DNA of 64,000 bases from Escallonia rubra (taxonomy: Eukaryota; Streptophyta; Magnoliopsida; Escalloniales; Escalloniaceae): positions 310,001 through 374,000 of the forward strand of contig JAVXUO010002747.1 in NCBI GenBank assembly GCA_033065855.1. Reading direction: 5' to 3'. Below, in pieces: positions 641 to 37,646 of this stretch. The position numbers were made by a program, and so were the translations under genes. How positions within the stretch are numbered: the first letter of the stretch is position 1; every line of letters starts with the position of its first letter. The notes under the pieces were generated by a model. The model searched no databases. It was not told the DNA's origin and saw only the letters and a list, made by a program, of their open reading frames with translations.

Positions 641-726
641 GGTAGTCAACAGTCAAAACACCCTTATTAAAAAACATGGGACAGATTCAAGTCATACCAG
701 TTGACCGCCCCTGATGCATTTAAATA
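641..726 (+). promoter_or_regulatory. Promoter cassette of peptide gene 1 (W-box doublet, TATA-like)
   Basis: The block agtcaacagtcaaaac (644-659) carries two GTCAA cores, the complement of the TTGAC W-box core. It is followed by a conserved block (aagtcataccagttga) and the TATA-like tttaaata at 719-726, about 100 bases before the ATG. The sister genes have tataaata at this place, so this copy has a weaker-looking TATA. Function is inferred from conservation across the paralogues and known WRKY-site sequence, not shown. Confidence 0.5.
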
Positions 727-826: not shown

Positions 827-1042
827 ATGAGGCCCTCAGTTAGCACTCTTTTAGTCATTATAGCAGTGGTATTCCTACTCAGCATGCATGGTTATGGAGC
901 TATTAGAACCCTAAATGGAGAAGAACAAGTTTGGATCAAGAATTCGCATCTTCTGCTACCATCTTTACAAACGGCTCCTGTTTGCCCTCCTGGAAATGGA
1001 TGCACCTACATTCCTACTGCAGGTTGCAGGCTATGCACCTAA
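827..1042 (+). CDS. Small secreted Cys-rich peptide, CTNIP/SCREW-like candidate (copy A)
   Basis: A 71-residue precursor. Residues 1-24 form a signal peptide (MRPSVS, then a hydrophobic core, ending GYGA), followed by a hydrophilic linker with GEEQVWIK and a C-terminus VCPPGNGCTYIPTAGCRLCT-stop. The start is the ATG in front of RPSVS because all paralogues share it and the signal peptide begins there; an upstream in-frame TTG is not needed. The C-terminal NGCTYIP...GC resembles the CTNIP/SCREW phytocytokines, secreted immune and water-loss peptides perceived by the receptor kinase HSL3 as I recall, but those carry two cysteines and this one has four. No intron is seen. It could instead be an unrelated small Cys-rich secreted peptide. 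Coding status rests on conservation between copies; family assignment is moderate. Confidence 0.65.
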   Translation: MRPSVSTLLVIIAVVFLLSMHGYGAIRTLNGEEQVWIKNSHLLLPSLQTAPVCPPGNGCTYIPTAGCRLCT

Positions 1043-3615
1043 AGATCATGCCCTGCCGTCCGGTGGCCAAGGAAGTAACAACGTGACAATACGAAGTTAG
1101 AATCAGAGAGTTAGAACTTATAAGAAACATGTCAATTGTAATTAGCTAGTGATTAATAAACGGCAAATCATGCTGTATGAAACTGTCTAATCAACTTTTT
1201 TTTTGTTTCACGTTCTTTACCCATTATTCGGGTGTAATGCGTATACGAAGCAAGTAAAGTACGATTTTTGTTATCAATTTGCATCCTCAAGGTATTGATT
1301 ATGGGTTCCTCTTCATGTTTGCAGGGAGAAAAATTCTAAATAATATACCATTAAAACGTCGGTAAGATTGCATTCAACGAAAACAATAAAACCCTAAGGA
1401 GACATCCTATCAAGAGGTTATCTAGAAAAACTATAAAGTAAATTGAAAATCTTGTCAATCGCATAAATAATGTTGGTCAAATCAAACTCTGATCTCCCTA
1501 GATACCGAGCAGCAACCAAAGTAGATCAATAAGCGACAAATCTTCCATCTAAAACACTATTCTCCTCAGTCATCGGATCGGAGGAGTATCAGCAACTCCT
1601 CCCAAACTCTTACATTAGTTGAGACTAGGATGCATGCATGTGTATTACGTCGATATACTTGTAAAAAAGATATCTAGTTATATTGGACTTAAATGCTCCA
1701 AGCATTTTAAACATTATCCTTTGAAGTCAGAATGGCTCACTATACCAGATTATTGATTCAAGTCTTCCCTCTTTTTGTCATTGGAACCCTAATTCCGCCT
1801 ACGCATTGGTGCTTCTTTAATTTGCAAGGAAAATCATTTTTGTGACTAGCCAACACATAATAACATTGATATAGGGTAGATCGATCTTGTGCACTATGCA
1901 TCGTACCTAACTTGTACCTCAAATTTTACAGAACCACCATCAGTGAAATGTAAAATCATAAAATGTTGTATTCTAAATGACGTAGCTTGGGTTAGCTCAT
2001 CAATGATACTTTTGTCATTTTATCATCCTAGTACTAATATTTTTTATTCTTTTTCTTTTTTCCGAATAAACACCAGTATCTTTGGTGCTCAACTATCATG
2101 CAGCACACAGACTACTCAAAGTTGGTCTCCGAAAACAACATAAAAATCAGAACTAAATTAAACTAAGACAGTGCCTTTAATCCCCTTTACATGCGCAACA
2201 CTTGATTCTGGTGGGTTGTGGGGAATCCACCTTCGGACTCCTCAATATCATAGAAGCTCTTGGTTTTCCCAATGGTTGCGACAGCGAACAAACTAAGACA
2301 TTCCATTTGAGCAGCCTATTGATGGTACTGTTGTTAGAAGTATTCAAAATTACATCGTTGGAGACGTCTCTATATATGATATAGCAAGCTACTAGTTTTT
2401 TCCAACATGTTTAATGCTTGTGTCGCTAATGCCAACAATGAAAGGGAAATTGATATTTGAGTTTTCACATTTTATCAATTGAGTTTCACTTTCGTCGCTG
2501 AAAGTTTCTCAAGTGTCTCTATATAAGAATTTTTACCAGAACCTGGTGAGCTCAAATACTAAAAGTGTTACTCCAATATCATTTCCCTAACAAATTAAAA
2601 CTGCTGACATAATTGCTTTTTAATTGCAACGTTTACATGTGGAAGCATTAATATTTTCAAATCCAGGGAAGCTTAAACTCTGAAACCATATTTTCAAACA
2701 TTCAAAGTGGCAGAATGACTAGGGAAGCAAAAATGACATGGGAAATGACCAAGTCACCAAACCCTCAGTCCTGTCCATTTAATCGCAACGTATGAATCAA
2801 GTAACATATAGAACGAGTAAAGCTTTGACAGAAACTTCATAGACAACGATCTAGGGAGGTGGTTCCTTGGAGTGGCAGTGATCCGAGACCATTTTGGTAG
2901 TATCAGTAGGATATCACATTCTCTTAAAGTGCTTAAAGCTTCTCGCTTTGTTGTTTCGTGCTTTTAGTTCAAAATATGTGTCAATTTGTCATTCTTACGC
3001 TCTCACTTCGATAAGTCAAGTGTGACAACAATCCGGCTACTGCATTAAGATATTGTCATCTAACCTTTCAGTTGCTACCATCTGGCTGGATACGGAGATT
3101 ATTACATTTTTGCTACCATATCCCCACCAATTAAGTAGTTCTTACTTGTTGGAAAGAACCAAAGGGGCAAATCCACAATCAAGAAGCTAAAATACATTAA
3201 CTGGAGCCTAATTGAGGAAAAAAATCTTTTTAGTCGATAATTAGGCCAATTCTAAATATGGATCAATAATCCGAAAAAGGGAAATTCAGCCCGTTCGAGT
3301 TTAAAAGAGTATATCATTGGAGGTACGGTTTTGCGAGATTATATCACATGCGTTAATTGTTGTACAACAAACCATAACATCGTCAATGACCCTCGGGGCA
3401 TAAACGTGAAAGATGGTGGTGGAGAGATGGCAATTTTTTGCTTTTTTGGCTGACTGGAACGTTTCTCCCAATATCTAGGCAAACACAAGCAAGACGACCC
3501 AACCCTTCAGACATTCAAAGCCTCCATTCCTCAAATCCTAAAATTGTTCAAGGTCCACCTTTGCTAGTAAACGCATTCCTACAAAACCAGAAATTCGGGA
3601 AGACTACAAAAATAT

Positions 3616-5103
3616 TGTATATGAGGACACGATCTTTATTTGCATGTCCTGCAAGATGTAAGATTGAGTTGGAAGAAAATAAATGTAAGGGTAAGTGAGT
3701 TAAAAAAAAATTCCCAGTAATTGATAACAATGGTCAGTTATGATAGTTAAGGTAATGGGGTACTAGGGAGATTTCAGTGATAGATGTCACAGTATGGCAG
3801 TGGTGGGAACCAGAAAGGTGACAATGATTACAAATGTAATAGTGGTAATTCTTGTGGTGGTAGTTGTAAGACTATTAATGAGATTGAGATTTGAATAGTT
3901 CTGGCAACCCATGGTTGCAATGGTACGTGTACTCGAGATGGTTGTGGTGGTGGTAATCTTAGCAATAAGATTATAGTGATGGCAGAGGTGATGGTAATGG
4001 TAACAGTTAGTAAATGGTAATTCTAAGATGATTAGAGGTTGCATTAATATAATGGTGGTTGACAAGTTATGCTCTAATATGCCTTGACAAGTGATAAGGT
4101 ATTCGTGGTAGTTCAAATATGCTCATTTACAGTGGTAGCACTAAGGTGGTTTGAGGTAGTATCAACGTAGTAGTGGTGCATGAGTTATACTCGGAATCTG
4201 GATTGGACAGCCCGAAGAAAAAGACATAGTGATGACTCGATTAATCTTTGATAATTTGAACATATACATAGAACGTACTTTGAGTACTATATTTCCTTTT
4301 CATTATGCACCGAACAAAAAATATGCGAAGTGCTTTGCATAAAGAAAGATATCAGATGACTCAATTAGCATTTATGCTTATAGGAAGGTTGAGCTTCATA
4401 TACATCATCCCTTAAGAAGGAAAATTGTAACTCTTTACTAGATTCTGTTAACAAAAACAAATAGAATTATAAAAATGAGCATATGAATGGTGATTTTTTT
4501 CCTTCACAGTATCTTTGGAGATAAGATTGCTTTAACCTGGTGATTAGAACATTGATGCTTGACTATTGAGTTAAAAGGTCTGAATCTACAATTTTATCTT
4601 AGTACGAGATTGTGGCTCATAATTTGTAACTAAATGTCAAAAGTATTGCTTATGAAAAAGCATTCTAAGGTTATACCATAATTATTTTTATTGTAAAATT
4701 CGCATCCGATTTGTAAGTAAAAGTATGCATCAAAACTTTCCAAAAAGGTGTTTTCAAGATGTGATCTTATATTTTAATTTCTATATTTGCCGGCAATTAA
4801 CAAGAGTTGTAATGTATCAATAATTAATGTGTTTTAACCAATATTTTCAACACCAATTGGTGCTTTGAAATCTCTCTAATATTCTCATGTATCTTCCTGT
4901 TCTGTCAAAGAAATTAGAATTGTTGAGTACAACTTTGTGCGTATATAACATGTACGAACAACATAGGTTGCGAGAGACATATGGATGTATATTACATGAT
5001 TACAAGAAATTTCAATAGATGCGTCTTTGTTGTACCTCTTAAAATTCAAAAGAAGACAATTTTTGAAACATGTCCCGTGCATTTGCACGGGTCCATTAGC
5101 TAA
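3616..5103 (+). mobile_element. Helitron-like insertion candidate (3' end recognisable)
   Basis: This sequence is absent from the sister unit. Its right end has a perfect 8-bp stem hairpin with a 2-base loop (5074-5091, cccgtgca/tt/tgcacggg) followed nine bases later by CTAA (5100-5103) and then T. That is the hairpin-plus-CTRR layout known for Helitron 3' ends, which insert between A and T. The left end is not resolved: I found no clear TC start, and 3616 is only where alignment with unit 2 is lost. The interior holds a simple-sequence-like gtggtg tract (3780-4190) and no Rep/helicase coding, so it would be non-autonomous. Confidence 0.4.
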
Positions 5104-5301
5104 TATTTTAAATAGGAATTGGTACTAAACTGCTACAAAGCGTGTTACTGATAGTCTTTAGCAATCAACTTAAGCTTAGAGGGGCAATGACCTTGATGAG
5201 TTTTGATGTTTATCCTGGAAGTTAAATAAAAAAGAAAACTGAATGCCCAGAATTCTCATTGACCAATTCAACTTCTAATGAACCTTTCATGAAGCCCTAG
5301 G

Positions 5302-5392
5302 AGTCAACAGTCAAAACACGCCCTTCTATCAGATTAAAGAAGACAGGAAAAATTCAAGTCATACCAGTTGATGACCCTGATGCATATAAATA
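5302..5392 (+). promoter_or_regulatory. Promoter cassette of peptide gene B
   Basis: The W-box doublet agtcaacagtcaaaac (5302-5317) is followed by aagtcataccagttga and a canonical TATA box, tataaata (5385-5392), 100 bases before the ATG. The arrangement matches copies A and B', so it is likely the core promoter. Confidence 0.55.
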
Positions 5393-5491
5393 TGACCCTC
5401 TTCCTTCATTTACTCTTCAAACTAATTTCATCAACCAATTGCAAATATAACTACTCTTCTTCAGTTTCTTTGCTTGCTCAACAAGATCAAG

Positions 5492-5707
5492 ATGAGGCCT
5501 TCAGTTAGCATTGTTCTAGGCATTATAGCAGTGGTACTTCTGCTAAGCATTCAAGGAAATGGAGCCAGTAGAATCCTGAATGGAGAAGAACAAGTTTGGA
5601 TCAAGAAAGCGCATCTTCTGCTACCATCTTTCCCCAAGGGTCCTGTTTGCCCTCCTGGAAATGGGTGCACCACCATTCCTACCGCAGGTTGCAGGACATG
5701 CAAGTAA
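5492..5707 (+). CDS. Small secreted Cys-rich peptide, CTNIP/SCREW-like candidate (copy B)
   Basis: A 71-residue precursor collinear with copy A. It has a signal peptide of about 24 residues ending GNGA, a linker with GEEQVWIKKAH, and a C-terminal VCPPGNGCTTIPTAGCRTCK. All four cysteines keep their spacing (C-x5-C-x7-C-x2-C). The CTTIP core replaces CTYIP of copy A. The start is the ATG before RPSVS, as for the paralogues. It differs from copy B' (9961) at only two residues (one in the signal peptide, one TAG/TPG change near the third cysteine), so the pair is a recent duplication. Receptor and function are not shown by sequence. A four-cysteine end suggests two disulfides after secretion. Confidence 0.65.
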   Translation: MRPSVSIVLGIIAVVLLLSIQGNGASRILNGEEQVWIKKAHLLLPSFPKGPVCPPGNGCTTIPTAGCRTCK

Positions 5708-5955
5708 AGATCGTGCCCTCGCTCGTGGACAGGAATCAACAATGTGACGATATACACAAGCAGAATTCAGAACTTACAAGTTAGAAAAATATCAAATGTA
5801 ACTAGCTAGCTGACCACAATAAAAGCCTAACCATGCTCTATATATGTAGGTGCTCAATTTTTTTTTTTTTGGGTTACAAATTCTTTACCCACAATTTGGG
5901 TGCATTTAACGAATAACAATTCAAATAAAAGTTGTGTTTATTTCGCATCCTCTTG

Positions 5956-7252
5956 GTTCCTGCAATGAAGGAGAAACATCGAAGTTTCAGATATAGCCAT
6001 TCAGGTTTTAAGTGGCGTGAAGAAACAGATTGTTGCTATATGTCTTATATTGGGGGTTCACAGGCGGAGCCCCCGATTGGAATATTTTGAGTGTCCGTAC
6101 ACGAGTAGGAGTTTTCCTTGAGTTGGACATAGCTATAAATACGATATGTTCTCTTGTATAAACGTGACAGCTGACAATTGAGAGATACACGTGAGGGAGC
6201 ATCGTAAATCTGACTTGTTCAAAATGGATTTGAGTTCTCTCTGAATTTGTGTGTTCTTGGGTTGGCTTATTGTGTTTTATACTTACTTACTAAGAACGAT
6301 TTCGTAATACAGATATACCAGGGAGCAACCAAAGACGGTACCGGGAATTAGTTTGCCTGGTAAAGCTATAATAGACGTGGATGCAACTACTAAGAAAGGT
6401 TCTTACTCTGCACATTCACCAGCTTTCCCTGAATTTTGGTTCTCAAGAATTTTCAAGATCAGTGACTTGTTTTCATCCAGAAATTGCATAGTCCGCATAA
6501 CATGAAACATATATATTTGTTAATGTACCCCCGACTTCAAATCTTCCAGTTATAAGCATCAATAATGATAATAAATTTCTTAGGTAATTCAAGGATTACA
6601 AGAATATGTCGGGGTGACAAAGGTGGAAAAAGCAGTAGTGAAAAACCTAAATTCTTGTAACAAAGATGTAGGGGCGAACCCGATCGAGCTAAGGAAAAGG
6701 TTTCCGAGCTCCATTCGCGATACTAAGACTATATATAGCTCAAGCGAGCCCGAGAGTTCAGCCTGTGAAGAAGATAGGGTATTCAAGAGTGGCTCGGCTC
6801 AGTTAAAACTTGTAGCAAAAACTACTCGAGCTTGCGAGCTCCTGCTAGAGCTAAAGACAAGCCTTCGTATATCTGTTGTTTATATTCGAACAGTAGCAAA
6901 AATATTAAGATCATCAAGCTTTACTGTGTCAAGCTTGAAATGTCGAGACTTGGCTCAGAAAATGAGAAAAATTGTGAGATTAAACCATTTTTATTTAATT
7001 TCCACATCAGTTAATGACGATAAACAGACGAAGAATCATCACAACAAAGTTGGATCAACCGACTAAAACAGTGCAAGGTCTAGGAACTGGATGCAACACA
7101 TGCAAGTTAACTAAGAAAACCATTGTCAACCTGAAGCAGTAGTAAAGCACTGCCCAGAAGAGTAGGAAAAAGTACATGGGAAAGAGAGTGGAAAACTTAA
7201 ATACACACACGAGTCAAAAAGATGACAAACCTGCTGGATGTGATCAGTAGTG
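5956..7252. other. Foreign spacer between duplication units
   Basis: This sequence has no counterpart in the duplicated units and ends where the truncated peptide copy begins, so it probably replaced the 5' part of that gene. A stretch at about 6031-6330 looks like a decayed Copia-type LTR remnant (a ggcggagccccc motif and a TATA box ctataaatac), but no partner was found. The open stretch at 6614-7066 is Ser/Lys-rich, has no recognisable domain, and I do not call it a gene. Confidence 0.35.
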
Positions 7253-7384
7253 ATGTTAGTGGTGGTAAAAGCCCCCTGGATCAAGAAATCACATCTTCTG
7301 CTACCATCTTTACAAAGGGCTCCTGTTTGCCCTCCTGGAAATGGATGCACCTACATTCCTACTGCAGGTTGCAGATGCACCTAA
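7253..7384 (+). pseudogene. 5'-truncated copy of peptide gene A (A')
   Basis: From TGG at 7277 the frame reads WIKKSHLLLPSLQRAPVC and then PPGNGCTYIPTAGCRCT-stop, nearly the same as copy A, with one residue lost between the last two cysteines. The signal peptide and first part of the linker are missing: upstream of 7277 the sequence is unrelated. A fortuitous in-frame ATG at 7253 (MLVVVKAP) would give a 43-residue product without a secretion signal. The 3' flank is about 95% identical to that of copy A by eye, so the duplication is recent. Confidence 0.75.
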
Positions 7385-9770
7385 AGATCATGCCCTGCCG
7401 TCCGGTGGCCAAGGAACTAACAATGTGACAATACGAAGTTAGAATCAGAGAGGTAGAACTTAAGAAACAAGTCAAATGTAATTAGCTATAGGCTAATAAA
7501 CGGCAAATCATGCTGTGTGAAAGTGTCTAACTTATATTTTTTTTTCACATTCTTTACCCATATTATTCTGGTATGTAATACATATACGAAGCAAGTAAAA
7601 GCATGCTTTTTTTTATTAATTGGCATCCTCGGGAAATTGATTATGGGTTCCTCTTCATTTTTCAGGGAGAAAAATCCTACATAATATAGCGTTGAAACGC
7701 CCATAAGATTGCATTCGACGAAACCAAATGAAACCCTAAGGGGACATCCTATCAAGAGGTTGTCTAAAAGAACTAGAATGTAAATTGAAAATCTCGTCAG
7801 TCGCATAAATAATGTTTGTCAAATCAAACTCTGATCTCCCTAGATATTATATACCGAGCGATTAGCAACGAAAGTAGATCAAGCAGCGACAAATCTTCCA
7901 TCTAAAACACTATTCTCCTCAGTCATCGGATCGAAGGAGAATCAGCAACTCCTCCCAAACTCTTGCAATAGTTGAGACTAGGATGCATGCATGTGTATTA
8001 CGTCCATATACATGTAAAATAGATATCGAGTTATATTGGACTTAGATGCTCCAAGCATTTTAAACATTATCCTTAATGTGGACTTTCATTTGCATGGAAA
8101 ATAAATTTTTGACTAACCAATACATAGTAACATTGATATAGGGTAGATCGATCTTGTACACTATGCATCGTAATTTGTACCTCAAATTTTACATAACCAC
8201 CATCAGTGAAATGTTGTATTCTAAATGACGTAGCTTGGGTTAGCTCATCAATGATACTTATGTCATTTTATCATCCTAGTACTAATATTTTTTCTTTTCT
8301 TTTTTTCTTTTTTTCGAATAAACACCAGTATCTTTGGTGCTCAACTATCATACAGCACAAGACTTCTCAAAGTTGGTCTCCGAAAATAACATGAAAATCA
8401 GAACTAAATTAAACTAAGACGGTGCCTTTAATCCCTTTTACAAGCGCAACTCTTGATTCTGGTGGGTTGTGGGGAACTGTTTCCACCTTCGGACTCCTAA
8501 GCGAACAAACTCCTCAATATCATATGGAGAACCACCTGAGAATAGTTTGGCTAATTATTTGAACACCAGCACATTGATATCATAGAAGCTTTGGTTTTCC
8601 CAATGGTTGCGACAGGGTACACCATCCTTATCGCTTAAGACATTCCAGTTGAGCAGCCTATTGATGGTACTTTTGTTAAAGGTATTCAAATTTACATCGT
8701 TGGAGACGTCTCTATGATATAGCAAGCTACTAATTTTTTTTCCAACATGTTAATGCTTGTATTGCTAATGCCAACAATATGAAAGGGAAAGTGATATTTC
8801 AGTTTTCACTTTTTACCGCTTGAATTTCACTATCGTCACTGAAAGTTTCTCAAGTGTCTCTATATAAGAATTTTTACTGAAACTAGTGAGCTCAAATACG
8901 AAAAGTGTTACTCAAATATCACTTTCCTTACAAATTAAAACTGCTGACATAATTGCTTTTTTATTACAAGGTTTACATGTGGAAGCGCTAATATTTTTAA
9001 ATCCAGGGAAGCTTAAACTCTGAAACCATATTTTCAAACAATCAAAGTGACAGAATGACTAGGGAAGCAAAAATGACACGGGAAATGACCAAGTCACCAA
9101 ACCCTCATTCCTTTCCATTTCGCAACGTATGACTCAAGTAACATATAGAACGAGTAAAGCTTTGACAGAAACTTCATAGACAACGATCTAGGGAGGTCGT
9201 TCGAGTCCGAAAAAGGGAAATTCAGCCCGTTCGATTTTAAAAGAGTATATCATTGGAGGTACAGTTTTGCGAGATTATATCACATGCTTTAATTGTTGTA
9301 CAACAGACCATAACATAGTCAATGACCCTCGGGGCATAAACGTGAAAGATGGTGGTGGAGATATGGCAATTTTTTGCTTTTTTGGCTGACTGGAACGTGT
9401 CTCCCAATATCTAGGCAAACACAAGCAATACGACCCAACCCTTCAGACATTCAAAGCCTCCATTCCTCAAATAGTTTAAAAATTCAAGGTCAACCTTTGC
9501 TAGTAAACGCATTCCTACAAAACCCGAAATTTGGGAAGACTACAAAAATATTGTCAATTCTGGAAGCATTTTAGTGACTCTTAAAAAGCCCGTAAATATT
9601 TTAAATAGGAATTGGTACCAAACTGCTACAAAGCGTGTTACTGAAAGTCTTTAGCAATCAATTTAAGCTTAGAGGGGCAATGACCTTGAAGTTAAATAAA
9701 AGAGAAATTGAATGTCCAGATTTCTCCATGACCAATTCAATTTCTAATGAACCTTTTATGAAGCCCTAGT

Positions 9771-9861
9771 AGTCAACAGTCAAAACACACCCTTCTATCA
9801 GATTAAAGAAGACAGGAAAAATTCAAGTCATACCAGTTGATGACCCTGATGCATATAAATA
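9771..9861 (+). promoter_or_regulatory. Promoter cassette of peptide gene B'
   Basis: The W-box doublet agtcaacagtcaaaac begins at 9771 and the TATA box tataaata lies at 9854-9861, with the same spacing to the ATG (9961) as copy B. Confidence 0.55.
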
Positions 9862-9960
9862 TGACCCTCTTCCTTCATTTACTCTTCAAACTAATTTCAT
9901 CAACCAATTGCAAATATAACTACTCTTCTTCAGTTTCTTTGCTTGCTCAACAAGATCAAG

Positions 9961-10176
9961 ATGAGGCCTTCAGTTAGCATTGTTCTAGGCATTATAGTAG
10001 TGGTGCTTCTGCTAAGCATTCAAGGAAATGGAGCCAGTAGAATCCTGAATGGAGAAGAACAAGTTTGGATCAAGAAAGCGCATCTTCTGCTACCATCTTT
10101 CCCCAAGGGTCCTGTTTGCCCTCCTGGAAATGGGTGCACCACCATTCCTACCCCAGGTTGCAGGACATGCAAGTAA
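9961..10176 (+). CDS. Small secreted Cys-rich peptide, CTNIP/SCREW-like candidate (copy B')
   Basis: A 71-residue precursor, nearly identical to copy B. It has an N-terminal signal peptide, the GEEQVWIKKAH linker and VCPPGNGCTTIPTPGCRTCK at the C-terminus with all four cysteines kept. About 190 bases of upstream DNA (cassette and TATA box) and about 240 bases of 3' flank are also almost identical to copy B. It therefore duplicated as a full transcription unit and is probably functional. The C-terminus is taken as the mature peptide because it is the only cysteine-bearing and most conserved part after the signal sequence. Confidence 0.65.
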   Translation: MRPSVSIVLGIIVVVLLLSIQGNGASRILNGEEQVWIKKAHLLLPSFPKGPVCPPGNGCTTIPTPGCRTCK

Positions 10177-10417
10177 AGACCGTGCCCTCGCTCATTGGAC
10201 AGGAATCAACAATGTGACAATGTACACAAGCAGAATTCAGAAGTTACAAATTAGAAAAATATCAAATGTAACTAGCTAGCTAGTGACCACAATAAAAGTC
10301 TAATCATGCTCTATATATGCAGGTGCTCAATTTTTTCTTTTTTTGGTTACAAATTCTTTACCCACAATTTGGGTGCATTTAACGAATAACAATTCAAATA
10401 AAAGTTGTGTTTATTTC

Positions 10418-10745: not shown

Positions 10746-12244
10746 GGAAAGTAGGGAATGACCCCCTCTACTTTACATATTGTGCGATTTGTCCCCCTCC
10801 ACTTCAAATTTAAGCACTAAACCCCCCCACAGTTACAGAAAATGGGCACCTTAGACGGAAACCGTTAAATATAACAGCGCGTGGTCAACACGCGCATTGA
10901 CTAACGATTTTTTTTTGTAAATGACGTTTTTGCCCATTTTGTAGGGGTAATTAACTAATGACCCCATGTACTATATACGGTGTGCGATTTCTCCCCCCCC
11001 CTACTTTAAACATAACCACTAAACCCCCCCCACACTTACGAAAATTGGGCACTTTATACGGGTCTGTTATGAATCTTCGTGAAATGACCAAAATACCCTT
11101 ATTTCCTTACCCTATTTAAGTTTAATACCATTCTTTCAACTTCTTTTTCTCTCCTTTCAGACTTTTTACTCAATCCCGCATACACACACTCCACGCACAC
11201 CCAGCACGCACACACACACACAAAAACATACACACACGTACCCTAAACCCACACACAGACGCGTACCCACTGCAAACATACACACACCCTGCTCGCATGC
11301 GACTGTGGCAGCAACGTCATCGCGAATCTGGTGCAGCCCCAGCGGCGTGTAGCCAGTCACGGTGGTCATGTGATGTTGTTTGGCGCGATGTAGCGGATTG
11401 GGGTGGCACGACGACGGAGGTTAGACCTGCGATTTGGGGACGTGGTCGTCGATCTTGGTGGCAGGGATCTGGACGGATGTGCGGCAATCAGACGCCGATA
11501 GCCTGTGTTTGTGGGGATTGATGTTACCGGTGTTGATTGCGCCAGTCGCTTGGAGGCCGATCAAGAAGCCCCACTGGCTTGCAGACGCAAGGCAGTGGGA
11601 AATGGCAGCGAGGAGGCAACTCACGACGATGTGTAGTCGGATAGTATAAAGTTGGGGGAGTTGGCCGGAGTGGTGGTTACTGTGAGGCTAATCATGGTAG
11701 TTGTTGCGCCGGTGATATACCAATGCCAATCGTGGTTCCTTTATTTTTTTTGTAACTCTCTGGTGGTCGGAGAAAAAGACCAGTGGTTGTGCTCAGTGAA
11801 TCACCAATTATAGCGGGGTTGACCAGATGAGGAGGTGCAGATTGCGGGAATCCCTTGTTTGCGGTGAATCTGGTAGCGCAGAATGGGGTGGGGGACTGGT
11901 CTGACGGGTGTGGGGGGAAGGAAGGGGGAGGGTCATGGGCAAAATTGTAATTTAAATTTAACGGTTTCCATCTAAGGTGCCCAATTTCTGCAAGTGTAAG
12001 GGAGTTTAGTGGTTAATTTTGAAGTTGAGGAGGGGGGGGGGGGGAATTGCACACCGTGTATAGTACAGGGGGTCATTAGCTAATAAAGAAATAAGGGTAT
12101 TTTGGTCATTTCACGCTATTCATAACGGACCCGTCTAAGGTGCCCATTTTCTGTAATAGTAGGGGGGTTTAGTGCTTAAATTTGAAGTGGAGGGGGGCAA
12201 ATCGCACAACGTGTAAAGTAGAGGGGGTCATTCCCTACTTTCCC
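10746..12244. mobile_element. MULE-like element with doubled, long inverted arms
   Basis: The left end reads aaagtagggaatgaccccct and the right end is its reverse complement (agggggtcattccctacttt). The inverted arms run for more than 100 bases. Each arm holds two related copies in tandem: a second, diverged copy of the same arm starts near 10960 on the left and lies near 11980-12080 on the right. The interior (about 11160-11940) is GC-richer, starts with a CA-rich stretch, and has no recognisable transposase. Long arms without transposase suggest a non-autonomous Mutator-like element. A clear 9-bp target duplication was not found, so the superfamily is tentative. Confidence 0.55.
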
Positions 12245-13817: not shown

Positions 13818-14129
13818 ATGAGACCTCCAATCGTTGTCTTGGCCATTATGGCGGCAATTTTTTTTCTAAGCATCAAACCACTAGAAGCTAGCCGGGCACT
13901 ACCGAATGGAGAAGCGGGAGAAGAGTGGATGAAAGCATCAGAGAATCTGCTGCTACAATCTCTACGAGGTCCTGATCGTGATCCTGGAAATGGATGTACC
14001 TACATTCCCGGGCAGGGTGGTAACCCCTGCACGCTCGGCCAGAAGAACTTTGCAGGTCATGCTAGGCCTCCTTCTCATGCATACCCACAGCTTGTGACTC
14101 GATTTGGCGTTGCTACTAAAGTAGCTTAG
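13818..14129 (+). CDS. CTNIP/SCREW-like secreted peptide precursor, canonical two-Cys form
   Basis: A 103-residue precursor. The signal peptide (MRPPIVVLAIMAAIFFLSI, ending near LEAS) resembles that of the four short genes (MRPSV). A linker (GEAGEEWMKASENLLLQSL) is followed by RGPDRDPGNGCTYIPGQGG, NPCTLGQKNFAGHARP and a 25-residue tail. The two cysteines bracket CTYIPGQGGNPC, close to the CTxIP...C core I recall for CTNIP/SCREW phytocytokines, which act through the receptor kinase HSL3. It keeps the NFAG-type extension after the second cysteine that the short paralogues have lost. The start is the only ATG before the signal peptide. Secretion is well supported; family assignment is moderately supported. 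Confidence 0.7.
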   Translation: MRPPIVVLAIMAAIFFLSIKPLEASRALPNGEAGEEWMKASENLLLQSLRGPDRDPGNGCTYIPGQGGNPCTLGQKNFAGHARPPSHAYPQLVTRFGVATKVA

Positions 14130-15748: not shown

Positions 15749-17245
15749 TCATTTTGAAAGAGCGGCAGCAAGCTTCTCCTTCACAAGCTCAGCGGTACCA
15801 CCTTGCGTCCGGATAGCAAATGTGTGGATAACTTCACCATCATCAGTTGTGGAGACACTAGAGTCCTGAGCTACAATCCGATGTTCCCTAAATGTCTTTA
15901 TGACTTTAGAAACCGGATGAGCATCCAATGGGCAGCTCGCTCTTACAACTGCATCTTCTTGCGTCATGTGGAACTCAATTTCTGGCATAGCGTGCTTTTG
16001 CTTACCGCCCACCATCTCCTTCTCAGCTTCCAAGATCCTTATCTTCGTCTGGAGATCAGTAATGTATGCAATGGCATCACCAAGCAGAGAGGCTTTGTCC
16101 ATCTTAGAAATATTAGGGACGACTGCTCTTAATGCATAGAACCGCTGGTTCAGCTTCTCCCTCCTCTGCCTCTCAGCTTCCACGTGATTTAATGGTTCTT
16201 CCCTGCCATTGGCAGGCTTTCTACCTCTCTTTCTGGGTTTCCTCTCATCAGGTTGAAGTGATAAGTCCTCCTTAGCTAGTTCCATAGTAGAAACTAGAGT
16301 TTGGGAATTCAAACCCCCGATCATTGGCGGGAACAATTTCACTTCACCATCATCACCTCTGTACCCATTTGAAGAATTCCCAAAAACTTGATTGCTACTT
16401 ATTGCCTGTACATCATATGACTGTGAAGGAAATCCTGAATCATCTTCAACCTTCGGAGAAAAACTTATACTGATTGGGCCTGGCTTCGCACCACCAAGAC
16501 TAAGTTCCTGCCCAAATATCTTTGGCAACACTTTTGTATGTACAGGCTGAGGTCCCCCACATATCGTTCTCACCATTTGAATTAAGTTCTGTTCTTCAGT
16601 AATTGACTTGCTAGAGCCAATCTCTACGACTCCTGATTTTACAGGAATAAACACTACTGTCTCAATTCGAGCCAATTTCGCCAGAAACGACCTCGACTGA
16701 TAATGGTCTAAACTACTTCTCATATCTGAAGTCCATATAGGTCTACCAGAATTAAAAGACTGAGCAGGAATTGAGGGCTTATCAAGGGAAAATGAATAAT
16801 ACATTGATGTTAAGTAAAACATCTCCATATCTGAAACCAAATCCAACTTGGCCGCAAAATTATCTTCCTCCGATCCCCCAAAACATGCGTGGAGCTTCTG
16901 AAGCACCCGCTTTTTCCTATCCGCCTCGTCCAAAGTTCTATTTGCAGGACAACCCCCATCCCCAACTTCACCCCCCTTAGATTCCCTACAGTGACCATCA
17001 CCCCAAATCAAGGCTGCTTTGCCGGATTTCAAGCTTGAGACTTGCCAGAAGATGGCATAAGTCCAATTTGACCCCTCAAGAATCTTGCATAGCCCCTGCT
17101 GCACTCCCAAATCCCTAGCTGTGGCAGTAAATTCTGGTAACACGTTATTGGAAGATGACCAAACCAAGAATTCAAACGCTTCGGTACCCAATACAGCTTC
17201 CACCATAGCTTTGTCCTCTTCTTTTGACCAAAACTTCTCCCCCAT
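15749..17245 (-). CDS. bHLH transcription factor, bHLH3/bHLH13 (JAM) type
   Basis: A 498-residue, single-exon coding region. It starts [16 protein letters not shown] and has the bHLH-MYC_N domain (about residues 5-250, with LIWGDGHC and [10 protein letters not shown]). Next come a basic patch ([15 protein letters not shown]) and the bHLH domain at about 352-402. The H-E-R residues (His354, Glu358, Arg362) fit E-box/G-box binding. The C-terminus is an ACT-like dimerisation region. Length and motif order match Arabidopsis bHLH3/bHLH13 (JAM3/JAM2), nuclear repressors that antagonise MYC2 in jasmonate responses. An upstream exon is suggested: ccttcag|gtaac on the minus strand at 17764 can splice to an acceptor just before the ATG, giving a 5' UTR intron of about 0.5 kb. 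I am sure of the family but not which JAM paralogue it is. Confidence 0.93.
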
Positions 17246-17829
17246 CTTTCAAAAAAAAGAAAAAGAAATCCCAACAACCACTAGGTTTAAGCTGTCTCAA
17301 AATATGAACAAACCCTTAAAACTCTTAACAACTAATAAAAGATAGTCATGTTTCTCAAGAAAATGATTCAAATTCTAGAATTTTGATGGGAATGTTGACT
17401 CTAAGACACTTGGGTATGACTCACCAACACAAAGAAACTTAATCAAACAACTACTACGGGGTCAGCCCTCTCAAAATTATGAAGAACAGAAACCCTAAAT
17501 TGAAGCAGCTATTAGGGAGTCAGTCAGATCCCTCAAGAAAGTGTTTCAAACACAAGAGGAATCCTGAAATTAAGACGCTTGGATTTTAACCTCAATTCTA
17601 CCAAACTATCACGCATAACCCCAAAATTCTTGAATTGTCTAATATTGGGTCCATTCATCATCATCATAAAGAGAGGACTTTTACAGGGTAGGAATTTCAA
17701 GAAATTTTAAACAAGAAACACGTGAAATACAGGCTACAATGAAACATAAGGAGCAAGTGTTACCTGAAGGTTACGATGGTCCATGATGGATCTGGGTAAG
17801 AAGGAAAAGGGTGCTCGTGTTTCATGCGA

Positions 17830-21297: not shown

Positions 21298-24200
21298 TAG
21301 AGTTGTCAAACGGGCCGGGCGGCCCGCGGGCTGGCCCGGCCCGGCCCGGTTCTGGCCCGGGCTGGCCCGGCCCCGTCGATGAACAGTAGCGGCCCGCGTG
21401 CAGAGGGCCTGGGGCCTGGGCCTGGACCAGGCCTTCAAAATCTGGAAAAACGGCCCGGCCCGACCCGGTTTGGCCCGGGCTTGGCCCGGTCTGCGGCCCG
21501 GTTATTTGGCCCGATCTGCGGCCTGGGTTTGGCCCGGTTTTGGCCCCACTTTTTTGAATCTTTTGCTTTTCCCCCCCTTTCTTCCACCCCTTTTCCAAAC
21601 TTCCACTTTTACCCCCCCAACAGCTATATAACGGCTAGTTTGGGGGGTATTTTAGTCTAACCTATATTTTTCAACTCCTTTACACTCTTACCCTCCCCAA
21701 CAACTATAAACGGATAGTTTGTAGGGGTATTTTGGTCTTTTGTGAAGTTTCTAAAATCTATAAATTCACACAATTTCTCTCTAATTTTTCACACCAATCT
21801 TCTTACTCTCTTCTTACTCTCATAACAAGGTTTGCTACTATTTTTCTCTCTAATTACTACTCTTGCTAATTACTACTAGTATTTACTAATTAGTACTCTT
21901 GTTTATTAATTACTAGTCTTGCTAAATTCTTTTTAATTACTAACTCTCTAATATTTGTTACTCGTTCATTCTTTTAATTGTTATTTCTTATTACTACTCT
22001 TATACTTGTGTATTTAGTTACTCTTACAAAGTTTAGCGTGAAATATGTCTGGAATAATTAAGAGAATTAGGCGTGCATCGTCATCACGAAAAACATCATC
22101 ATCATCGCAAGCACCACCACCAGCACAAGCGCCAGTGCCACGGCCATCAGAAACACCAATCCAAGCACCAACACAACCATTCGTTCGTGGACGAATGAGT
22201 ACAGGCTCTATGATAGATACACAAGCCAATTGGGAGTTCAATCAAAACATTCCAGATTTTGAATACACGCCTGATGAAGACCCCCCGCATTATAGTCAAG
22301 GACGCAGCTCGGTTGGCGAAGCTACTACTCAGTGGCATAATCTCAACCCTATGCCTGGTCATGATGAAGAAGGGCCGAGCAATGCCTCCGATAACGTGCC
22401 AGAAGTCCAAAAGGGGAAAAAGAAGAAAGCCGAGTGTTGGAACATTTCGACGTAGTTACGGTGGACGACATCCGAAAAGCTCGATGTAAGTACTGTCTTA
22501 AATTATTTTCGACTGGTAGTGGTAATGGACATCTTAACAGGCATTACCCTCAGTGTGCACCTCGACAAGGCCACGTCGAACCTACCCAAATGCAGTTATC
22601 TTTTGACGGTAAGTTATTTGTTTATAATCAGCGAGAGCAAAGAGACGGTCTCGCTGAATTTGTTATTCATGATGAACAAGCCTTTTCTTTTGCCGATAAT
22701 CCTAAGCACTCTAGATATATGAACACATACGTTCAACCTTTGTACAAAAAGGTTCATATAAACACAACTAGATCCGATGCACTCCGACAGTACAAGGCTG
22801 CTAAAGCACGCCTTATCGATTATTTTGATAAATTTGACGGTAAAGTTAGTCTTACTTCTGATATTTGGCAATCTCCTTATACCTTTGTTAGTTATTCTTG
22901 TGTGACCGCTCATTGGATTGATGCAGATTGGGTTATGCACAAGAGAATCATCGCTTTCGAGCACTTCCCTTATCCGCACGATGGAATGAACATTGCTATT
23001 CTTATATTAAAAGCATGCACCACATTTAAAATTAAGGATAAGATTATGAGTGTTAGTTTTGATAATGCTTCTAATAATAAAGCTGCTGTTGCAGCTTTAA
23101 AGGACACGCTTCAACCTGTATTTCATGGTAAATTATTTCATGTTCGCTGTGTTTGTCACATTATTAATTTAATTGTTCAAGATGGTTTAGCTGCTGCAGG
23201 AGATATTCTGCTCAAAATGAGGGGTATGACAGCGTATGTTAATGGCTCGAGTTTGAGAACACAACAATTTAAAACGTTGTGTGTTCAATATAATATGCCT
23301 CGCAGGAGAGCAGTTACAAATGTGGTCCACAGGTGGAACTCTACATACCACATGCTTTTACACATTCTGGCATACCGAGAAGTCTATACGCATTTTCTAC
23401 TAACCCAGTTCCCAGCCGGCTTGCCAACTCAAGAGGAATGGCAGATGGCCACATACCTAGCTGAATTTTTGGAGGTATTCTACACGTCTACCAATTTATT
23501 GTCTGGTACGTACTATCCCACCTCTCCTCTCGCTGTAATAGAAATTCTGAAGATGGCTACAATGTTAACAAAATGGAGATATATAGGACCCTTTAGGGAA
23601 ATAGTACAAGTGATGGATCAAAAATTTAATAAATATTGGAGTAAACTGCCTGCTATTTTTACTATGGCTACTTGTTTAGATCCTAGGTTAAAGTTGCATA
23701 GTGTGAACGCCTCGATACAAGAGATATCGAAATTAATGCGCTACACAGCAGAGGACACAACCTTGCTCACAGCAAAAGTGAGCAAGAAGTTTGAGGACTT
23801 GTTCAACCTCTATCGTAATTCTGCTGACGTGCGCGGGCGAGCTACATCATCATCCACTGCTGAGAGGTATTATGCGCCATACCTTCAAGGCTTTGAATAT
23901 CTAGTAGCAAGACAACTACCAGGTGAAGGTACTTCTAATTCGGGAGGTTCGTATACTTTTTCCTCTTTTCATGAGATTGGCGTATATGCAAATACTGATC
24001 ATTATTCTGATTTATCAAGGTAAGAACATGTTAATTTTAATTTGTTAAATTTTTGGAAACAAAATCAAAACATGTATAAAACTTTATCCCAAATTGCACG
24101 GGATGTACTGCCAGTGCAAGCCTCCACGGTTGCTTCAGAGTCGGCATTTTCAGCAAGCGGGAGGGTTTTGGATGACAGGAGGAGTCGTCTTAACCCCGAG

Positions 24201-34803: not shown

Positions 34804-37646
34804 TTAAGGAACACAAAGGCGTCTTCTTTTACACTCGTCTTTACGTAATTCTTGTAGCTGAGTAGCTATCTCTTGAATATATTGCAATCCTTCATTCCCG
34901 TTTTGGAGCGTCTTAATAGCATTCTCAAGGAAATCACGGTCAGCCTCAAAAGCTTGCAATCTCTCATTCAGGTCAGAAATTTCATTCTCAAGAGCAGCCA
35001 AATCAAATTTATTGTTGTGTATAGAGGATTTTAGCTTATCAGTACCCAAATATGCACCATCTTCGCAAACAACATGATTGTCCTCAATTGAAGTAATGGA
35101 TTCCTTCTGAGCAGAACTTCCATTAGATTCAGACAAATCTTTCTTCACTGACAATCCATACTCAGCCTTCTGATGATTTATATGAGCAGTCCGCCTGTCG
35201 TCAGAATGCTCTTCCTTGTGTTCTATGCCACTTGTTATCTTTTCAAGGTGGAAGCCATTAGGCATGTCACTCGATGCCAGGTTACTAGAAAATGTATGAA
35301 GCTTTCTCTCTAAGTTCTTCAGATATTCTGAGATGTACAGCTTTTCATTCTCAAAATGTAAAAGTGAATTCTTGGCATCCATGGGGTTGCCACTGTCTTC
35401 ATATTTTCTGGTCGATTCACAAGAGACAGTGGCACTGCTTTCAAGTGCAATATTGTCATCCTTCAGGTTGCTGTTTTCTTCATGCAGATTCTCTGCGGCT
35501 GATTCATCTGTGAAGTTATTCCTCTGAAGTTCTAATTCGGCTTCCAGATCTTGCACCTCTTTCTCTTTTTCTGCTAGGAGATCGTTAGCCTTCTGCAGTG
35601 CATCCATATCATACTCTGCCTGCTCCTCCATCATTCTCAAGTACTGCAAGGCCTCCATATGAAGTGCTGCCTTCTCCTCTTGCAACCTAGTAATCATGGC
35701 CATCGCCTGATTGGCAGCAACAGCCGAAGCACTTCTTTCCTCCTCTAGTTCTCTATACAAAGTGCTCATGCATCTCCGGTCATACTCAACTTGTCGTTTC
35801 AGCCTATCAACAGCACTTTCACCCTCAATTTCGCTGACACTACTTCCACCAGGAGACTCATAACCAAGATCATTTCTCTCCAGCGAGGCTGACCTTTGAA
35901 ACACCCGGACCTCATCAGAGCTAGAAGCATCACTTCTATGTACTCTATCATGATAATCATGAGCTCTTGGACTTGCATGTGATGATGAACCCATCTCATG
36001 GGTGGATAATATTGGTGACAAAAACTTCAGATCTTCAACAACTTTTGCAGAATCACCGACAGAAAGTCGCTCTGCAAGCATACCTGAGAACTGTCGACCT
36101 TCATTACTTGACACCAACTTAGATGCACCAGTTTGATCAGTGTCATTTGCAACATCAATTGAAACCCTTGTCCCAGTTGTCGTACTCGATGACTCAGAGA
36201 ACTGTACTGGCTTGGTGATTGATGTGTTCCCGTCATCATTTGCTCCAATAAATTCTACCGCTGATACTATCACAAGAGAAAAGATACGTAAAATGAAACA
36301 AGATCTATGAAAACAAGTAGACATGTTTACGCACCTGCCACGCATGTGGGATTAGGGCGGGGGGGGGGGAGGAAGGGAGGGAGGGGGAGGGATTGAGAGA
36401 GAGAGAGAGAGAGAGAACACTTACACTTCTGTGGTGATACTCCAATAGGAAATCCCATGAAATTAGATTGTGGAGGAATTTCATTGAGTGGCATAAGCTC
36501 AGATAGTACATAAAGGTTATGACTGGAGGGGGATTCATGATTAGACTTCTCTGCTGATACACCAAAGGGAACTTCTGCAACATTAGATGATTGGTGGACA
36601 TCATCTAATGAGATAAGTTCTGGCAGGGCATAAGGGCTAGGCTTCGCATTCGGTTGTTCCCAGTTATGTTCTCCAAAAGGATCAGATGCCAAAGATGTGA
36701 CATCAAGTTGCACGGATTGATCCAGAAGTGAAGGCCCAGAATCAGAAGCTTGATGGGTTTGCTTCACTAGACTCTCATTGTCGCTCCCGGCCTTAGCCAT
36801 ATCTACTGAGCCACATCGTCCAATAAATTCCGCCTTGGGATCAATTTTCTCACGAGCCACACTAGTTCCATCATCGTCGTCAGAGAATGGCACCTCGGAC
36901 TCCGAATCAGAAGTGATCTTCAGCTCAGTATATCCAACGTGAGACAGTGTGTCAAGACTAGTATTACCAGCACGACGAGGAGTTATTGGCCCTGAAAATT
37001 TATCCCTCATCTTTTTAAAGCTATCCCGTCGGCTTAAACGGCTACGGCCCGGCACACGAGGCAGTGGAGGTTTGACGTTTGCTTTAGAAGCCCCTAACCC
37101 AACCGAGGTTAGTTGGAGTAATCTTTGAGCAGTTGATTTAGCTATCCAGGGCTTATTGCAACATGAACATGTCTTTTTGCTTAAAAAACCAGGAATAAAA
37201 TTCTTATTTAGAAAACGCCTAGGATAACCTAACTGCTCAAAATCCATCCCTAGCTTACCAACCAATGGCTTGTATGATTCTGAGCCAGATTTGTTCTGCA
37301 TGGCTACAGACATGAAACATTCTTCACACATGCTACGGACGTCAACAAGCTTATTGTGGATGTGGCAAGATATCAAGGCCGATATCTCTGCTCTGTGATT
37401 GCTGCAAATTACACTCCAATAACTTCCAGGTTCTTCATTTCCAGAGTAATGATCGAGTCTCGAACATAATAGGCATGGTGTCGGCAATTCACAATAATGT
37501 GCAAATCTAGTCAGCAAATATGACAATGCCGCATAGATAAACATCATGAACATCAAAAGCCATTCACAAGCTGCCGAAGACAGTAGACTCATGAACCCTC
37601 TTGGATATCTCTGTACATTGACAAATGAAGTCCCTTTGGCAGCCAT
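34804..37646 (-). CDS. Myosin-binding protein (GTD-binding, DUF593 family)
   Basis: Two coding exons: 36425-37646 (donor aagt|gtaagt) and 34804-36266 (acceptor gatag|ta). Joined in phase they give 894 residues. The N-terminus has a membrane segment (EWLLMFMMFIYAALSYLLT) and a Cys-rich stretch (CELPTPCLLCSRLDH, later KTCSCCNKPW). A long acidic, low-complexity middle follows. The GTD-binding domain (about residues 559-653) is a coiled coil containing RCMSTLYRELEEERSAS and EKAALHMEALQYLRMMEEQA. A second coiled coil lies near the C-terminus. This is the architecture of Arabidopsis MYOB proteins (Floury1-related), endomembrane receptors for the globular tail of class XI myosins. A 5' UTR exon probably ends at 38295 (gtccag|gtac), giving a 5' UTR intron of about 0.6 kb. 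Confidence 0.92.
36357..36418. repeat. G-run and GA microsatellite in the intron
   Basis: A G-rich run (36357-36391) is followed by gattgagaga and a GA repeat, all inside the single coding intron, close to the donor. On the transcribed strand it is a CT/C-rich tract. Confidence 0.9.

Follow-up and report, generated by a model that had tools for sequence, protein, structure and literature searches.

The closest described systems to the locus analysed here are the CTNIP/SCREW phytocytokines of Arabidopsis (AT1G06135, AT1G06137, AT2G31335, AT2G31345 and AT3G23123), whose precursors of about 70 residues carry a C-terminal active region and whose receptor is HSL3/NUT (AT5G25930). PMC9191895 identifies AT5G25930 as HSL3 and describes CTNIP4 as a 70-residue protein with its active fragment, residues 48 to 70, at the C terminus; it further reports that both CTNIP cysteines are required for activity and binding, that CTNIPs were filtered for two cysteines 9 to 11 residues apart, and that CTNIP-HSL3 pairs were species-specific in the cases tested. 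Here, we describe a tandem array of CTNIP-like genes in Escallonia rubra, part of which lies in a window of 64,000 nucleotides, the whole stretch of DNA analysed, corresponding to positions 310001-374000 of contig JAVXUO010002747.1 (C2120). The assembly searched comprises 566 Mb in 3222 contigs. Judged from its sequence, the array is real and coding, and represents a CTNIP/SCREW variant with four cysteines that has been amplified in its lineage. Like the Arabidopsis genes, its members encode precursors of that length with a C-terminal region that aligns to the active one, a GPV...NGCTxIP core and a pair of cysteines 9 to 11 residues apart (the second and fourth, C2 and C4), and HSL3-clade receptors are encoded in the same genome. 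The array differs in having one cysteine (C1) added five residues before C2 and another (C3) added inside the loop, in reading CTTIP or CTYIP instead of CTNIP, and in comprising 10 intact tandem copies of two alternating subtypes. We give a probability of roughly 0.6 to the reading as a whole, namely that the products of the array are secreted precursors of a phytocytokine that derives from CTNIP/SCREW and is probably a ligand of HSL3-clade receptors.

Organization and conservation of the array

The family genes of the window are listed below, with window coordinates.

827-1042, plus strand: subtype B (CTYIP), intact, CTNIP-like precursor of 71 aa with four cysteines; open reading frame (ORF) and genome search
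5492-5707, plus strand: subtype A (CTTIP), intact, CTNIP-like precursor of 71 aa with four cysteines; ORF and genome search
7271-7384, plus strand: 5'-truncated subtype B copy, C-x5-C-x7-C-x1-C; genome search and self-comparison
9961-10176, plus strand: subtype A, intact, CTNIP-like precursor of 71 aa with four cysteines; ORF and genome search
13818-14129, plus strand: two-cysteine CTNIP-like relative, 103 aa, C-x10-C, C-terminal extension with KNFAG; ORF and family alignment

The three intact 71-residue precursors and the truncated remnant predicted by the initial annotation are thus all present, and their endings, C-x5-C-x7-C-x2-C (x1 in the truncated copy) around CT(Y/T)IP, are as it described them in all four. 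It also correctly recognized a tandem array, but the limits it set, 827-10176, are too narrow, since seven more intact copies lie upstream of the window and the two-cysteine relative at 13818-14129 had been missed. A genome search with copy 5492 as the query produced 14 matches, 12 of them on C2120. Between contig positions 270557 and 320176, this contig carries 10 intact four-cysteine ORFs, three inside the window and seven upstream of it (starts at 270557, 273410, 278665, 284811, 290075, 297374, 302592, 310827, 315492 and 319961); the remaining members are the truncated copy (317271) and the two-cysteine ORF of 103 aa (323818), and the whole row of family genes covers 53 kb. The number of CTNIP-like genes found in the genome is a minimum. 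All 11 array copies, 10 intact and one truncated, keep four cysteines. Subtype A (CTTIP) has five copies and subtype B (CTYIP) five intact copies plus the truncated one, in a mostly alternating B-A order along the contig.

The three intact window copies have a 266-nt repeat in common at 84-86% identity; because their ORFs are duplicates of one another, a chance origin is excluded. The short DNA motif alone was uninformative, with 2445 and 2401 occurrences on the two strands versus 2668 and 2461 for a reversed control. Self-comparison revealed recent segmental copies upstream of the window, pairing 271886-280600 with 283285-292002 (97.0% over 8.8 kb) and 283592-289382 with 296137-301918 (98.1% over 5.8 kb), and the window copies are older than these. 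By the same comparison, the truncated copy is a junction at which sequence resembling an A-copy 3' flank extends to about 7278 (317278) and homology to B copies begins near 7277 (317277, codon 36), so that it is devoid of the signal region and of the B-type upstream region. A second ATG-started frame of 55-76 aa also overlaps each intact window copy in the +1 frame (915-1100, 5580-5747 and 10049-10279).

The following upstream elements were delimited by upstream alignment.

644-656, plus strand: pair of W-box-type sites, in reverse orientation, upstream of copy 827
5302-5314, plus strand: pair of W-box-type sites upstream of copy 5492
5385-5392, plus strand: TATA box of copy 5492 (TATAAATA), 107 bases upstream of its ATG
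9771-9783, plus strand: pair of W-box-type sites upstream of copy 9961
9854-9861, plus strand: TATA box of copy 9961

A TATA[AT]A motif is found at -107 to -111 from the ATG in nine of the 10 intact copies, copy 827 having TTTAAATA instead, and the W-box-type pair lies in an unbroken block of 17 columns that is invariant in all 10. Each intact copy and the 13818 gene carry two or three W-box-type sites per 200 bases, a number matched by 144 of 5000 simulated 200-base stretches, the copies being related and not ten independent events. We take the W-box-type motif to be a WRKY site, and its pairing suggests WRKY control and hence stress induction.

Between subtypes, coding sequences (CDS) are 85.2% (5492/827) and 83.6% (278665/273410) identical with at most one 3-bp gap, whereas the flanks are only 63-65% identical over 300 bases downstream and 72-78% over 300 bases upstream, with numerous gaps of a length not divisible by three. 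For the single pair tested, 5492/827, the contrast between CDS and downstream conservation gave a Fisher p of 9e-8. Within a subtype the contrast is small (273410/310827: CDS 88.3%, versus 85.8% downstream and 83.6% upstream). Twelve of the last 22 residues are invariant in all 10 intact copies (C53, P54, P55, G56, N57, C59, T60, I62, P63, C67, R68 and C70), and positions 58, 61, 64, 65, 66, 69 and 71 vary. No amino acid change was seen at the four cysteines, where the flank rate would predict 7.0 (P 0.0009) and the mean CDS rate only 3.1 (P 0.047), in calculations that do not model gene conversion and use pairs of copies with shared ancestry. The cysteines are therefore kept better than neutral sequence and only marginally better than the average residue. 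Ratios of nonsynonymous to synonymous substitution rates (dN/dS, Nei-Gojobori) were 0.33-0.38 for array copies against the 13818 gene. Because the CDS are better conserved than the flanks between subtypes, the indels are in frame, and the copies share an upstream TATA box and pair of W-boxes, they look like genes.

Cysteine spacing and relationship to CTNIP/SCREW peptides

The array precursors (70-71 aa) begin with a hydrophobic stretch at residues 7-20 within a predicted helix (5-24). A brief linker of variable sequence follows, and the last 22-23 residues can be aligned to the active fragment of CTNIP; many copies retain the GPV-x-x-x-G-N-G-C-T-x-I-P core. For four proteins of the family, Pfam returned no family at E values up to 10. 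Against the PDB, a piece of the two-cysteine protein at C2267:500290 matched one chain, 9wum_B, at a weak E of 0.67; CTNIP occurs in the sequence of this chain, which resembles that of another chain, 9w1s_C, and both entries also hold the AT5G25930 protein. A profile of 13 family members ranked 9w1s_C first (E 0.0032) and 9wum_B second (E 0.02), the next match being an unrelated ribonuclease (E 0.57), which supports the annotation's proposal of a CTNIP/SCREW-derived, four-cysteine, tandemly repeated subfamily. When sequences were shuffled 20000 times, the scores of copies 5492, 827 and 284811 were reached by 7, 9 and 28 shuffles against 9w1s_C and by 7, 48 and 24 against 9wum_B. The corresponding numbers for three two-cysteine proteins were 26, 0 and 2 and, for 9wum_B, 0, 0 and 0, better than the array copies in most tests. 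Since the two-cysteine relatives match both the array and the HSL3-associated peptides, the link between array and CTNIP runs through them, and CTNIP ancestry is supported by this route; taken by themselves, the four-cysteine copies are weakly linked to CTNIPs.

Two of these two-cysteine relatives lie on contig C2267, at 485101 and 500290, and the third is the gene at 13818-14129. They have the same core as the array and C-x10-C spacing in all three cases, but differ from it in that their C-terminal region has no cysteines beyond the C2/C4-type pair and, for two of the three, in a longer C-terminal extension with KNFAG; about 30 residues follow the last cysteine in two and only a few in one. 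The KNFAG stretch is common to the 13818-14129 and C2267:500290 proteins. Array copies are 46-52% identical to the 13818 protein, and their upstream regions are homologous to that of its gene (alignment scores of 100, 86 and 92 for three copies, versus 58-60 for the best of 500 single-base shuffles). The C2267 relatives differ upstream, with one W-box-type site in 259 bases for 500290 and none in 400 bases for 485101. Coding and upstream evidence together thus make the 13818 gene, by sequence, the closest known relative of the array, and it may resemble the array's ancestor. Post-stop DNA of three copies aligned locally to the 13818 tail no better than shuffles did (fractions 0.55, 0.69 and 0.61), and a tail relic in the 3' untranslated region was accordingly rejected. 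The fourteenth match of the copy 5492 search, on C1213, was dismissed as a chance match, and weak matches on C2072, C1668, C1191, C1993 and C1777 (E 0.5-10) were not counted as family. The neighbour of the Arabidopsis CTNIP genes is, we assume, glyoxalase II; the three HAGH_C matches in the genome, on C2685 and C2731, lie away from both the array and C2267 and lend no support to synteny.

In the array, C2 and C4 are separated by 10 residues in all 10 intact copies and by nine in the truncated one, and C2 and C3 by seven in all 11. The HSL3-associated peptides 9w1s_C and 9wum_B both have C-x9-C, and C59 and C70 are invariant in the alignment of 13 family members. Because the C2-C4 spacing fits known CTNIPs and the two-cysteine relatives and the C2-C3 spacing does not, C2 and C4 are, from sequence comparison, the ancestral pair, and C1 and C3 the additions. 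The C2-C4 pair has the separation used to recognize CTNIPs, and the active region as a whole holds four conserved cysteines instead of exactly two. These mark a variant and not an exclusion from CTNIP/SCREW, as the published filter, in its wording, allows more than two. The addition of an outer pair, as first annotated, is not what the spacing indicates. Nor is the proposed loss of a tail supported, given that a short C terminus is already the state of CTNIP4, which ends with its active fragment, and that tail length varies among the two-cysteine relatives. Should C2 bond to C4 and C1 to C3, the two disulfides would interleave. The literature on CTNIP, as far as its available text goes, yielded no four-cysteine CTNIP, although such members may lie unremarked in the eLife supplementary alignments, which were outside the scope. 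Predicted short strands at 59-60 and 68-69 would be compatible with a hairpin closed by C2-C4; we gave them no weight.

HSL3-clade receptors and alternative explanations

Receptors were searched for with an HSL1-type query and then with the HSL3 ectodomain, and 76 of 1852 first-look candidates were scored. Among these, six loci (C1020:1074303, C1020:1138036, C1021:14610, C2835:322493, C2835:345971 and C2835:355113) reached 585-687 bits with the HSL3 ectodomain, the next locus having 410 bits; a seventh match, at C2835:333711, is partial (222 bits over 249 residues). The locus C1021:14610 was not retained as a separate receptor, as its ectodomain differs from that of C1020:1138036 at one base of 1713 and both lie near contig ends, making assembly overlap likely. 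Within about 34 kb, C2835:322493-356861 holds four HSL3-clade ectodomain matches, one of them over 249 residues only. For two receptors the best PDB match was AT5G25930, with 690.7 bits versus 461.5 for HSL1 and 601.2 bits versus 454.4 for GSO1 and 415.6 for HSL1. In a tree of 10 rows, Arabidopsis HSL3, both C1020 sequences and the four from C2835 form one clade with 100/100 support, apart from the HSL1-, HAE- and HSL2-like sequences of the genome, although long branches were flagged by the program and the tree does not fix how the three HSL3 lineages branch. Identity among the C2835 ectodomains is 88-93%; it falls to 57-58% against C1020 (full ectodomains) and to 51% against Arabidopsis HSL3, with which the C1020 ectodomain has 57% identity. 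Ectodomain sequences thus indicate that, beside a canonical HSL3, the genome has an old, divergent, tandemly repeated HSL3 lineage. An expansion of HSL3 paralogs has been described in Poaceae, where no clear CTNIPs were found according to PMC9191895. Multiplication of HSL3-clade receptors in one genome is common to both cases, whereas in E. rubra CTNIP-like genes have multiplied as well.

By analogy, a CTNIP-HSL3-type mechanism is likely for the array peptides. The precursors, with their hydrophobic N terminus, would enter the secretory pathway, and the C-terminal peptide would be released into the apoplast. A C2-C4 bond would form as in CTNIPs, and C1-C3 could bond as well, interleaving with it and making the loop stiffer or changing its shape. 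The peptide would then be read by a receptor of the HSL3 clade together with SERK/BAK1 as co-receptor, and a stress or stomatal signal might be raised or diversified. One may guess that the C2835 lineage reads the four-cysteine peptides. In a fuller version, tentative and rather unlikely in our view, ligand and receptor have co-diversified, with the four-cysteine CTNIP (C1-C3 across C2-C4) of the two-subtype array being read by the tandem C2835 sub-clade and the two-cysteine CTNIPs staying with the canonical HSL3 on C1020.

Several results weigh against a functional CTNIP-type ligand array. When the profile was built from only the 10 four-cysteine copies, it matched 9w1s_C at E 0.96, behind an unrelated ribonuclease at 0.37; a 28-aa query from copy 5492 matched nothing in the PDB, and the family was not recovered when 29 residues of 9w1s_C were used to search the genome in reverse. 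The structure predicted from 13 sequences is of low confidence (mean pLDDT 68, pTM 0.27). Between subtypes, dN/dS is 0.39-0.64, only mildly below 1, and two B/B pairs, 270557/310827 and 273410/310827, gave 1.0 and 1.9. In the last 22 codons, the proportion of nonsynonymous differences (pN) is at or above that of synonymous ones (pS) in five of six pairs, with few changes, non-independent pairs and no significance test; for the first two reasons, positive selection is not claimed there.

The ratios near or above 1 could indicate an array that is decaying as a by-product of segmental duplication, with most copies unexpressed or unneeded. One copy is clearly broken, and duplications as recent as those upstream of the window (95.7-98.1% over 5.8-8.8 kb) copy genes without need for function. 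We nonetheless consider this improbable, as all 10 full-length copies have open frames, coding sequences are better conserved than their flanks between subtypes and contain in-frame gaps only, 12 of the last 22 positions are invariant, the four cysteines among them, and the W-box block (10 of 10) and TATA box (nine of 10) have been kept. It is somewhat less doubtful, yet still unlikely, that the peptides descend from CTNIPs and have left the HSL3 pathway, as two-disulfide mini-proteins with another role (a different receptor, HSL3 antagonism or antimicrobial activity). The two added cysteines are fixed while the residues between them change, and C1 falls inside the GPV...G segment common with the HSL3-associated peptides, where it could disturb receptor contact. 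Such a departure fits poorly with the core retained in many copies, with the upstream region common with a two-cysteine relative, and with the expansion of the HSL3-clade receptors themselves. Finally, the initial annotation had itself raised a better fit of the C terminus to another named peptide family. The motif is rich in proline and glycine, and PMC11331138 groups CTNIP with PIP, CEP, IDA and CLE as proline-rich peptides. Descent from PIP/PIPL, CEP, IDA or CLE is most improbable, however, in view of the absence of any Pfam family for the four proteins, the first two ranks of the HSL3-associated peptides in the PDB search with the family profile, and the paired cysteines, a CTNIP trait.

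This genome bears on the origin of CTNIP-HSL3 specificity, as it combines an amplified ligand with an extra pair of cysteines, a two-cysteine paralog of the ancestral type and an expanded receptor clade. Since it holds both ligand forms as well as the expanded clade, specificity can be probed directly by pairing every form of the ligand with every receptor. If the phytocytokine reading is true, a linear-type phytocytokine would be moving here towards a disulfide-rich mini-protein.

Other features of the window

An inverted repeat with arms of 113 nt, 95% complementary and 1272 nt apart, lies between the array and the two-cysteine gene and is possibly a small transposon. The array is adjoined by a transcription factor gene with bHLH-MYC_N and HLH domains. 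These and the remaining neighbours are as follows.

10746-12243: inverted repeat
15749-17248, minus strand: bHLH-MYC_N and HLH transcription factor
22395-24023, plus strand: hAT-type transposase ORF, 542 codons
29933-31504, minus strand: intact-looking cytochrome P450 ORF (Pfam p450), presumably of the CYP94 type
34804-36351, minus strand: Zein-binding domain protein

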